A stretch of DNA of 64,000 nucleotides from assembly GCA_021800535.1 (NCBI GenBank), contig JAJYYV010000003.1:1-64000 (forward strand), in the 5' to 3' direction. The notes beneath the pieces are model-generated. The model made no database searches and was not told the DNA's origin. It worked only from the letters and a program-made list of their open reading frames with translations. Below, one piece after another: positions 2,785-60,158 of this stretch; positions within the stretch are counted from its first letter, which is position 1, and every line of letters begins with the position of its first letter. This DNA comes from a bacterium (GTDB lineage Bacteria > Ratteibacteria > UBA8468 > B48-G9 > DTJG01). Made by a program: the position numbers and the translations under genes.

Positions 2785-3066
2785 ATGCGGTCTTTAAAAA
2801 AAGGTCCTTTTGTTGATGAAAAACTTCTAAAGAAAGTAAAAAAAGTTCAATCAAAAGGTTCAAAAGAATCAATTAAAACATGGTCAAGACGGTCCACTAT
2901 TATACCGGAATTTGTTGGTATTACATTCTCTGTGCATAATGGTAAAAATTTTATACCTGTTTATGTTACAGAAAATATGGTTGGTCATAAATTGGGTGAA
3001 TTTTCCCCAACAAGGATTTTTCGTTCTCATGGAGCCCATACTGAAAGATCAATGGAGAAAACATAA
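2785..3066 (+). CDS. rpsS: 30S ribosomal protein S19
   Basis: [14 protein letters not shown]...[18 protein letters not shown]. Confidence 0.98.
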
Positions 3067-3422
3067 TGGAAGTGAAAGCAATTGCAAAATTTATAAAAAT
3101 AAGTCCAATTAAGGCAAATGTTATTAGGAAATCAATTGTGGGGAAAGAAGTACAACAGGCTGTAAATATTTTAGAAAATATACCTAAAAAATCTTCAAGA
3201 ATTATAAAAAAAGTTGTTCAGTCGTGCTTTGCTAATGCAAAACAAAAAAATTCTGATATTCAGGGATGGTATATAAAAAATATATTAATTAATGAAGGCC
3301 CAAAAATGAAAAGAATACAATCTGCTTCTATGGGAAGAGGAGTAATTATAAGAAAAAGATTTTCACATATAACAGTTATTCTTGATGAGCAGGTAATAAA
3401 TAAAAAAATAAAGAAAACTTAG
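3066..3422 (+). CDS. rplV: 50S ribosomal protein L22
   Basis: L22 fold sequence and operon position. Confidence 0.95.
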   Translation: MEVKAIAKFIKISPIKANVIRKSIVGKEVQQAVNILENIPKKSSRIIKKVVQSCFANAKQKNSDIQGWYIKNILINEGPKMKRIQSASMGRGVIIRKRFSHITVILDEQVINKKIKKT

Positions 3423-3430
3423 AGGAGTGT

Positions 3431-4156
3431 ATGGGACAAAAAGTAAATCCGATTAGTTTAAGGCTTGGTATTACTGAAAAATGGCGTTCTTTATGGTTTG
3501 CAGATGATAAAAATTTCAAGAATTTTTTAAAAGAAGATGTATTAATAAAAAATTATTTATTCAAAAGATTTCCCAGGGGTTCTATAACAAAAATAGAAAT
3601 AGAAAAAATCGCAGAAAAAATCAGAATTATTCTTTATAGTCCCAGACCAGGTGTGGTTCTGGGTAGAAAAGGAACAGAAATAAATCAGGTAAGAAATGAA
3701 ATTATCAAATTATTAAATGAAGATAAAAAGCAAACAAAGCAGGTAAGTATAGATGTTGAAGAAATAAAAAATCCGATTTTATCTGCCCAGTTTGTAGCAG
3801 ATACTATTGCTATGCAGCTTGAAAGACGGGTTCCTCATCGTGTGGCAATAAAAAAAGAAATGTCTTTATGCAGAAGCGCAGGTGCTCCTGGTATAAAAAT
3901 AAAAGTTGGAGGAAGATTAGGTGGGGCAGAGATTTCAAGAGCGGAATTATATATAGATGGTAAGGTTCCCTTACATACTTTAAGAGCAAAAATTGATTAT
4001 GCAACTTCTACAGCAATAACAAAATTTGGATGTATTGGAGTAAAAGTATGGATATTTTTAAAAGAAGTTTTAAATCCTAACGAAATCTATTTAAAAAAAG
4101 AACCAAGTGATAAAAAAGAAGAAGTGAAAACAGATAGAGTTTATGAAAAAAAATAA
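3431..4156 (+). CDS. rpsC: 30S ribosomal protein S3
   Basis: MGQKVNPISLRLGITEKWRSLWFAD; RRVPHRVAIKKEM. Confidence 0.98.
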   Translation: MGQKVNPISLRLGITEKWRSLWFADDKNFKNFLKEDVLIKNYLFKRFPRGSITKIEIEKIAEKIRIILYSPRPGVVLGRKGTEINQVRNEIIKLLNEDKKQTKQVSIDVEEIKNPILSAQFVADTIAMQLERRVPHRVAIKKEMSLCRSAGAPGIKIKVGGRLGGAEISRAELYIDGKVPLHTLRAKIDYATSTAITKFGCIGVKVWIFLKEVLNPNEIYLKKEPSDKKEEVKTDRVYEKK

Positions 4157-17339: not shown

Positions 17340-17566
17340 GTAAATACTCATTAAATTATGTAGTAATAAGAAGGCACAAAGATAAGACTTGATATAGGAG
17401 AATGCAATACTCAGGCACAAAGGCACAAAGTATTTAAGATATTTTAGTTTTTACTCTGTGCCTTAGTGCCTATGTGCCTGTAAATATGCTTGTCCGCCAA
17501 TATTGTAGGTGGAAACGTAGTTTCAACCTACGGCTGATCCGCTGTGGTGGACAGTGAATATTTACT
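17340..17566. repeat. Intergenic composite repeat (copy A)
   Basis: Contains AGGCACAAAGGCAC / GTGCCTTAGTGCC and GTAGGTGGAAAC / GTTTCAACCTAC inverted repeats; ends in CAGTGAATATTTACT, shared with other copies. Confidence 0.6.
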
Positions 17567-21649: not shown

Positions 21650-21663
21650 TGTTCTTCTCCATT

Positions 21664-21825
21664 GTAAATACTCAGTGAAGTATGTTTAAAATAAGTTTGA
21701 ATTGTCTTTTCAGCCTTCGGCTGATTCGCCGTGTTGTGTGGCGAAGAAATGAGAAGAGCAATTCATAACTTAATTCTTACTTTAGTTAGTATAAAAAAAA
21801 TAACAGTGTTTACTGAATATCTACT
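21664..21825. repeat. Intergenic hairpin repeat (copy B)
   Basis: GTAAATACTCAGTGA start; TTTAAAATAAGTTTGAATTGTCTTTT...AGAGCAATTCATAACTTAA imperfect inverted arms; ends GTGTTTACTGAATATCTACT. Confidence 0.7.
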
Positions 21826-21862
21826 CTCCATTTATTGTTATTAAAAAAATTAAATTGCTATT

Positions 21863-23123: not shown

Positions 23124-23215
23124 TTAAAACATATTTTATATCTGTCAAATTTTTTTGGTTAGATACTAATTTTAGTAAATATTCACTGATAAAATTGGAA
23201 TTGGGACAAAATTAT

Positions 23216-23437
23216 TTAAGTTAAAGATTTATCTTTGCTAATACCTGTTTCTTTGATGATTGCCCGTAATGTCCCTTTTGGAATATCACCTGGATGATTG
23301 GGAACAGTGGTACGCCTTCGAGTTTGAGGATTATACCAAATTTCATGACTTCCTTTATCTTCTCTATCAAAAACAAATCCTGCTGCACGCAATTTCTTTA
23401 TTACTTTTTGATATGTAAAGGCTGGTAGTTTACTCAT
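23216..23437 (-). CDS. hicA: HicA-family toxin
   Basis: LPAFTYQKVIKKLRAAGFVFDREDKGSHEIWYNPQTRRRTTVPNHPGDIPKGTLRAIIKETGIS. Confidence 0.92.
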   Translation of the reverse strand: MSKLPAFTYQKVIKKLRAAGFVFDREDKGSHEIWYNPQTRRRTTVPNHPGDIPKGTLRAIIKETGISKDKSLT

Positions 23438-23676
23438 ACATTTACAGGAATTTGTAAGTTTTCAATTTTCGCTTTTGGAGATTTTAAACTTTTTGGAAGG
23501 GGGTCCCCATGTGATATACAAGATTCAATAATTTTTCTACCAACATCTTGGGCTATTTCAATTGTTTCAGCAATAGTTCTTCCTTGAGCTATTAATCCTT
23601 GAATTGTATCACTTGTTGCTAAATATCCACCTTCTTTTAATTTTTTAATCTTTATATGTAATAAATATTCACTCAT
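23434..23676 (-). CDS. hicB: HicB-family antitoxin
   Basis: GGYLATSDTIQGLIAQGRTIAETIEIAQDVGRKIIES; overlaps hicA by 4 nt. Confidence 0.88.
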   Translation of the reverse strand: MSEYLLHIKIKKLKEGGYLATSDTIQGLIAQGRTIAETIEIAQDVGRKIIESCISHGDPLPKSLKSPKAKIENLQIPVNV

Positions 23677-23824
23677 GAAATAATTATATCATTTACATTG
23701 ATTTTTGTGAAATATTCGCATTGTGTTAAAATTCTTACAGAAGGAAGTTTAGTTTTTACTCTGTGTCTCTGTGCCTGTCTATATACACGTGTCTCAGTGA
23801 ATATTTACTTTCTACATTCAAGTT

Positions 23825-30444: not shown

Positions 30445-30472
30445 TGTTTATTAACCCTTAAATCCTTAGAAA

Positions 30473-30596
30473 TATGTTTAAAATAAGTTTGGGTTGTCTT
30501 TGATCCGCCTAAAAGATTGGCGGAGAAAAGAGCAATCCATAACTTAAGTCTTACGTTAGTTAATATAAAAATTAACAGTGTTTACTGAATATTTAC
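30473..30596. repeat. Intergenic hairpin repeat (copy C)
   Basis: TGTTTAAAATAAGTTTGGGTTGTCTTTGATCCGCC...GGCGGAGAAAAGAGCAATCCATAACTTAA...AACAGTGTTTACTGAATATTTAC. Confidence 0.7.
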
Positions 30597-31445
30597 ATTA
30601 ACCCTTTTTATTATATTTTCAAATAAATCATAAAAAATTTTTTTATATTCAGGATATTTTTCAACAATAGGAATTCCTTCAGAATAAGATAAGGCTATTT
30701 CTTTACTAAAAGGAATTTTCATAAGTATAGGGATATTTTCATCTTTACAATATTTTTCTACTTTATTATCTCCTATATCAAAACGATTAATTACCACGCA
30801 AAAAGGAATATTTAACTTTTTTACAGTTTCAACTGCCAGGATTAAATCATTTAATCCAAAAGGAGTTGGTTCTGTTACCAAGATACAAAAATCAGTTTCT
30901 TTAACAGTATTAATTACCGGGCAGGATGTTCCAGGTGGGGCATCTATAATAGTTATTTGTTGATTTTTGTTTTTTATCTGGGCGGCTGTTTTTTTTACTT
31001 GTCTTATTAGGGGAGAAGCATGGGCCTGTCCTAAATTTAAAACGCCATCCAAAAATTCAATATCGTTAATACATCTACCTATTCTTATAATGCCAAGTTC
31101 TTTGCTTTTTTCTGTAATAGCTTTTTGAGGGCAGATAAGTGCGCATCCACCACATCCATGACATAACTCTTCAAAAATTATTACCTTTTTGGGCATAACC
31201 GCAATAGCATGAAACTCACAAATTTTTCCACATTTGCCACATAGATTACATTTACTTTCATCAATAATAGGATGTAATATTTCAAAAGATTCAATTTTTT
31301 CTATTTTGGGATTTAAAAATATATGGGCATTAGGTTCTTCAACATCACAATCAAGAAACTGAATATTTCCGATGGATAATGCCAAATTAACTGCCACAGT
31401 TGTTTTTCCTGTTCCTCCTTTACCGCTTGCAACTGAAATAATCAT
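30582..31445 (-). CDS. MinD-superfamily P-loop ATPase with inserted 4Fe-4S ferredoxin domain (2)
   Basis: VASGKGGTGKTTVAVNLA; CNLCGKCGKICEF...CHGCGGCALICP; DAPPGTSCPVI. Confidence 0.92.
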   Translation of the reverse strand: MIISVASGKGGTGKTTVAVNLALSIGNIQFLDCDVEEPNAHIFLNPKIEKIESFEILHPIIDESKCNLCGKCGKICEFHAIAVMPKKVIIFEELCHGCGGCALICPQKAITEKSKELGIIRIGRCINDIEFLDGVLNLGQAHASPLIRQVKKTAAQIKNKNQQITIIDAPPGTSCPVINTVKETDFCILVTEPTPFGLNDLILAVETVKKLNIPFCVVINRFDIGDNKVEKYCKDENIPILMKIPFSKEIALSYSEGIPIVEKYPEYKKIFYDLFENIIKRVNVNIQ

Positions 31446-49080: not shown

Positions 49081-49311
49081 GTCGTTTACCCATCGTTAAT
49101 TTTAAAACGATGGAAAAGGTACTTCTTTCTTTAGGATTCATACCTATTAGACAAAAGGGAAGTCATGTATTCTATAGGCATTCTGATGGAAGAACAACTA
49201 CTTCTGTTAAACCATCTTGGAAGGGACATTTCTCGCTTTTTAACCAGAGAAATTCTTCGTGAAATTGATATTACCCCAGAAAAATTTATTGAGATACTAA
49301 AAAATATTTAA
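49077..49311 (+). pseudogene. hicA: HicA-family toxin, frameshifted
   Basis: RLPIVNFKTMEKVLLSLGFIPIRQKGSHVFYRHSDGRTTTS then other frame LLNHLGRDISRFLTREILREIDITPEKFIEILKNI*. Confidence 0.85.
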
Positions 49312-60065: not shown

Positions 60066-60090
60066 TATTATTTTGATAATTATCGTTATA

Positions 60091-60158
60091 AATATTTACT
60101 ATCCGCCTAAAGCGGACACTTTGTGCCTTATTACTACAGGTTTCACTGGGTATTTACA
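60091..60158. repeat. Short intergenic repeat (copy E)
   Basis: AATATTTACTATCCGCCTAAAGCGGACACTTTGTGCCTTATTACTACAGGTTTCACTGGGTATTTAC; shares modules with copy A. Confidence 0.5.

Follow-up and report, generated by a model that had tools for sequence, protein, structure and literature searches.

Composite and passenger-gene elements

Two described groups of mobile elements are among the systems closest to the locus analyzed here. TIME-COMP elements are composites of two MITEs of the Tn3 family, the mobility of which, with 5-bp duplications, has been shown in trap plasmids (PMC4133298). The elements denoted tIS66 are IS66 elements with passenger genes, e.g., ISPa75-fosZ (PMC12888890). The features that are characteristic of the IS66 type are ends beginning with GTAA (PMC12888890) combined with 8-bp target repeats, which have been recorded for IS66 elements (PMC3281130).

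In the window, i.e., the whole stretch of 64,000 nucleotides, a hicBA toxin-antitoxin gene pair is enclosed by perfect 16-bp inverted repeats that correspond to ends of IS66-type MITEs (Table 1). The likeness to TIME-COMP elements consists in the presence of two MITEs, direct or inverted, around cargo without transposition genes, and the likeness to tIS66 elements in a non-transposition gene located between IS66-type ends. The hicBA unit differs from TIME-COMP in that it lacks a target duplication, one of the MITEs is only 15 bp long and the family is IS66-type. It also differs from the tIS66 elements, which carry their own transposase, in that it carries none. On balance, we lean toward the view that this unit is a horizontally acquired type II toxin-antitoxin pair with the remnants of two IS66-MITEs, in opposite orientation, on either side of it. 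It is open to testing, though as yet unproven, as a case in which MITEs bracket a toxin-antitoxin pair and perhaps help it to spread.

Table 1. Features of the hicBA locus and other MITE copies in the window (positions are those of the window)
Feature	Position	Strand	Description
hicA	23216..23437	-	complete, 73-aa HicA toxin with the GSHE motif; Pfam PF07927 (HicA_toxin), E 5.4e-21
hicB	23434..23676	-	80-aa HicB-like antitoxin; 4-base overlap with hicA
Predicted hicBA promoter	23683..23711	-	TTCACA-17-TATAAT, TG before the -10 box
Left 16-bp end	23174..23189	+	first 15 bp of the right-type (R) IS66-MITE terminal inverted repeat
Right 16-bp end	23794..23809	-	R-type IS66-MITE terminal inverted repeat with subterminal ..CGT
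Right half of a 'TGTGCCT'-type IS66-MITE, 68 bp	23741..23808		matches positions 99-174 of the contig C25 copy and the copy at 17340-17565
Complete 161-bp IS66-MITE	21664..21824		duplication TCTCCATT at 21656-21663 and 21825-21832
139-bp IS66-MITE	30458..30596		duplication ATTAACCC at 30450-30457 and 30597-30604, read from the sequence
226-bp IS66-MITE, 'TGTGCCT' subfamily	17340..17565		decayed duplication, 6/8
Short decayed IS66-MITE copy	60089..60157		left boundary approximate

The hicBA pair

The gene pair resembles typical HicBA type II systems in that a gene for a HicA-family toxin overlaps a HicB-like gene, with hicB coming first; the small size of HicB is the sole unusual feature. The toxin is confidently recognized by its Pfam profile. 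The 80-aa HicB protein is detected by no Pfam or NCBIfam model, and its identification comes from weak matches to the HicB antitoxins 6u0i and 6hpb in the PDB (E 0.04) together with the pairing in its closest relative in the phylum. This relative is encoded in a genome of another family (G033), where a HicB that is 79% identical over 80 aa is accompanied by HicA. No such MITE ends were found at the G033 locus, which, judging from the sequences, fits horizontal transfer of hicBA independent of MITEs. A search of viral contigs found no HicB relative. The pair is predicted to be an ordinary, self-contained type II toxin-antitoxin system.

The predicted promoter of hicBA, with an 11/12 match to the consensus, was called on match quality and position, the promoter scan having yielded no more sites than shuffled sequences. 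It lies within the unit and outside the MITE sequence, so that the expression of hicBA need not depend on a MITE. The predicted -10 box is only 6 bases before the hicB start codon (window 23676-23688), and for this reason the hicBA mRNA may be leaderless. The window also contains another HicA match (49104-49214), which is shorter, covers model positions 2-38 and lies in a 64-aa open frame with no MITE ends nearby.

A family of IS66-type MITEs in Aerophobetes

Both ends of the unit read AGTAAATATTCACTGA, each on its own strand and exactly alike, and they enclose 636 bp. The first-pass annotation had noted these repeats around complete hicB and hicA ORFs, and the sequence and the enrichment of the motif bear this out. 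The repeats are real and not a product of chance: the window contains 13 matches to the 16-mer with no more than 3 mismatches compared to 1.8 expected (0 of the 100 shuffles reached 13), the genome contains 15 matches with no more than 1 mismatch compared to 0 for a reversed control pattern, and a Markov estimate of the chance expectation is 0.01 exact 15-mers in a 2-Mb genome. The other occurrences of the motif that had been pointed out in the window (17551, 21664, and near 21815 and 30585) are real element ends as well. The paired arrangement that was expected of the 16-mers elsewhere is also there: most of the strong end matches in the window's own genome (G000), which was surveyed as the stretches around such matches, are facing pairs that span 88-341 bp.

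Two further candidate features of the unit were rejected. An apparent third copy of the repeat at 23660-23675, on the minus strand, consists of the first hicB codons (ATGAGTGAATATTTA, encoding MSEYL) and has a 24-bp score of 4.2; it is a coding coincidence because the same residue pattern is present in the G033 relative, which lacks the repeats. The presence of CTAATTTTA and TAAAATTGG around the left end suggested a terminator or hairpin there; no terminator was found, and the folding was no better than that of shuffled sequences.

The consensus of the terminal inverted repeat, derived from 84 ends, is GTAAATAYTCASTGAAC..CGT and begins with GTAA. The aligned copies combine a conserved terminus, GTAAATAYTCASTGAACNNCGT, with strongly differing interiors, and the paired copies, the interiors of which vary and are non-coding, have lengths of 39-341 bp. 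Such ends are present at high copy in five Aerophobetes genomes, namely G000, one genome of the same genus (G001), one of the same family (G003) and two of another family of the class (G032 and G028), with counts of about zero for reversed controls. In a scan of genome contigs, the named records with paired ends were just two, each from Candidatus Aerophobetes; as the scan accepted only exact ends within a narrow range of sizes, absence elsewhere is weak evidence.

An 8-bp target-site duplication that matches at 7 or 8 of the 8 positions flanks 29 paired MITEs and the insertion sequence on contig C5 (see below), in six Aerophobetes genomes or records. Exact duplications are found at many of the paired MITEs, e.g., TATTGATA, CTCTTTTC, AAGAAATG and GAACGATT, and agreement at 7 or 8 positions is seen in about 0.1% of draws of random 8-mer pairs. 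About half of the certain MITEs in G000 have lost the duplication. Apart from the insertion sequence itself, the duplication-bearing elements are 78-256 bp long and none of them contains a cargo gene, so that the search for other cargos proposed in the first-pass annotation came up empty. Given the matching ends, the 8-bp duplications and the presence of an IS66 partner in the same genome, these repeats can be assigned with high confidence, on the strength of their sequence features, to IS66-type MITEs. The literature searched contains no description of an IS66-type MITE family of Aerophobetes. With this assignment, an abundant class of intergenic repeats of a poorly known phylum would gain a mechanism, in which IS66-type MITEs carry 8-bp duplications and have their probable autonomous partner in the same genome.

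Several individual copies show additional features. The last codons and the stop of the ORF at 30582-31445 are supplied by the right end (30582-30596) of the MITE at 30458-30596. At three positions (G000 C25:50679-50701, G000 C28:22392-22414 and G001 C3:28666-28688), a 23-bp palindrome of the GTAAATACTCAGTGAATATTTAC type stands alone; these sites consist of the left and right MITE ends fused via a shared TCAGTGAA, without a target duplication, and are possibly products of deletion between two MITE ends. The end of contig C32 and the start of contig C64 in G000 share the 3' end of a tRNA gene and the right flank GATTTATGGAGATATAATT, with different MITEs, 183 and 88 bp long; these are possibly strain variants of one site in a metagenome assembly.

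A probable autonomous partner

A search of the phylum for IS66 transposases turned up one on contig C5 of G000, the genome of the window. The element (C5:6092-8578) is a 2,487-bp IS66-family insertion sequence that has ends matching those of the MITEs and is flanked by an exact 8-bp duplication, ATAGAAAC. A transposase element with matching ends, for which the first-pass annotation had proposed to look, is thereby found in the same genome. The element contains two ORFs, encoding a 587-aa IS66 transposase (NF033517, transpos_IS66, 6.6e-77) and a 111-aa DUF6788 protein. By inspection, the transposase retains the HADE, VD and NNISER motifs, as expected of a DDE enzyme, and appears to be intact. 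A relative of the element that has the same right end and is broken by stops is present in the genome of the same family (G003 C19).

The MITE family and the C5 element share with IS66 the GTAA...TTAC ends, the 8-bp target duplications and, in the case of the C5 element, the DDE_Tnp_IS66 transposase. An IS66 element with canonical GTAAGCG-type ends is also present in G003. The differences from IS66 are that the ends read GTAAATAYTCASTGAAC and that classical IS66 members possess a tnpA/tnpB/tnpC set, in contrast to the single IS66 transposase ORF and the DUF6788 ORF of the C5 element. The C5 element is the probable autonomous partner of the MITEs, and its transposase would be the enzyme that moves them.

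Origin of the hicBA unit

The two ends of the unit are not equally preserved. The first 15 bases of the left end score 23.2, the same as the right end. Over 24 bp, the left end scores 12.6, compared to 26.0 for the right end and a training median of 27.5, and the sequence that follows it (TAAAATTGG...) contains no subterminal MITE sequence; by these sequence-based scores, the left end is incomplete, comprising 15 bp only. At the other side, bases 567-634 of the unit match the right half of a MITE (79% over 76 columns, E 2e-12, with the contig C25 copy as the closest), and no match to a MITE is seen for bases 16-566. A single MITE interrupted by an insert would have left-half sequence behind a left-type end, so that the structure found here takes no fewer than two MITE copies, facing opposite ways. 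Between the outer flanks, TAATTTTA and TTTCTACA, 3 of the 8 positions are identical, and hence no target-site duplication surrounds the hicBA unit. This absence only lowers the odds of transposition as a unit, given how many certain MITEs in G000 have lost theirs.

Under the reading that we favor, the inverted repeats would stem from two separate miniature transposons, both partly deleted and pointing in opposite directions, of which they would be the outer ends. The family of these transposons would be mobilized in trans by an IS66-type transposase, presumably that of the 2,487-bp element on C5. The hicBA pair would have been acquired horizontally, with its own promoter, and the MITEs would have inserted beside it, independently of each other, in the intergenic space that separates an FmdE-like gene from a gene for an ACR3/SBF transporter. 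Subsequent decay would have spared 15 bp of the left copy and, of the right copy, the 68-bp right half, and the unit would not be mobile now; no sign of the pair moving as part of an element was found in this analysis. Of the two interpretations offered in the first-pass annotation, a toxin-antitoxin pair located between two repeat ends fits best. From the other, a MITE-like repeat that has captured a toxin-antitoxin pair, the MITE-like family survives, along with the target-site duplications, which are found at the paired MITEs and not around the hicBA unit. The 636-bp unit as a mobile MITE with captured genes does not survive, given the missing duplication, the bare 15-bp R-type left end and the absence of cargo in the other duplication-bearing elements. 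Counting against the favored reading are the tight fit of the unit, with the left end only 26 bp from the hicA stop and exactly matching the right end that it faces, the low evidential weight of a missing duplication when about half of the certain MITEs lack one, and the occurrence of a second, unrelated hicBA between two MITEs in G032.

The same observations make a decayed composite transposon conceivable, if doubtful. Two inverted IS66-MITEs would once have moved hicBA jointly via their outer R ends, in the manner of TIME-COMP, the left MITE would have been later cut to 15 bp, and the target duplication would have decayed or been deleted. Both ends are R-type, as expected for the outer ends of two inverted MITEs, the toxin-antitoxin pair fits tightly between them, and both MITE composites (PMC4133298) and IS66 elements with passenger genes (PMC12888890) are documented. 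However, the outer flanks carry no target duplication, the left end lacks the subterminal bases that are kept by duplication-bearing elements, and a search of 35 genomes yielded no further copy of the unit. Searches of the phylum for HicB, FmdE and ACR3 revealed no syntenic locus in the relatives whose flanks were read.

The G032 locus bears on this reading from both sides. There, a different hicBA pair (C115:3487-3929) is located between MITEs at 3248-3430 and 3960-4136, but the right MITE has its own duplication, CAAAAGTC, and thus inserted on its own, and the outer flanks of the bracket show no target duplication. Moreover, MITEs are dense and clustered in G032, where an oxidoreductase-like gene and a pilin-like gene are also flanked by them; because ordinary genes are bracketed too, bracketing by MITEs alone does not show mobility. 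A specific association of MITEs with toxin-antitoxin genes was rejected for the same reason and because such ends enclose only 2 of the phylum's 43 HicA matches (a set in which some matches fall below the cut-off and those not retrieved were assessed by means of the list of ends). These two cases, noticed after the fact among clustered elements, are suggestive. It is unlikely that the Aerophobetes IS66-type MITEs are trans-mobilized carriers of toxin-antitoxin pairs that form composite mini-transposons (MITE-hicBA-MITE); if they were, the window unit and the unrelated hicBA on G032 C115 would be two independent decayed examples.

Capture of hicBA in the interior of a single MITE would agree with the one pair of perfect inverted ends that encloses the genes and with the wide variation of interiors in this family. 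We consider it quite improbable, given that in a single 'TGTGCCT' MITE the left end is L-type (GTAAATACTCAGTGAAG) and comes with left-half sequence, whereas the hicBA unit has an R-type end on its left side and lacks the left half, and that no other element holding a gene was found in the surveyed genomes. Finally, a site-specific recombination module with the ends as recombinase sites, for which the resemblance to the pdif modules known from Acinetobacter, with toxin-antitoxin genes between inverted short sites, and the three fused 23-bp sites could be invoked, has hardly any probability. For the entire MITE family, it is refuted by two findings: elements with these ends duplicate 8 bp of unrelated targets, and an element with a DDE transposase has the same ends.

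Two other arrangements in G032 were observed. The two MITEs of the C115 bracket are near-identical and in direct orientation; the intergenic region around them also includes a TATCACAGATTAAAAATTAAAGTCAAATT segment that is duplicated, as well as another MITE, the third, at 3049-3173. On contig C264 (1093-1485 of the stretch read), a 68-aa ORF (MAQADIVEKTKLSYDAESDVLYINF...), which may be DUF2283-like, is located alone between two MITEs.
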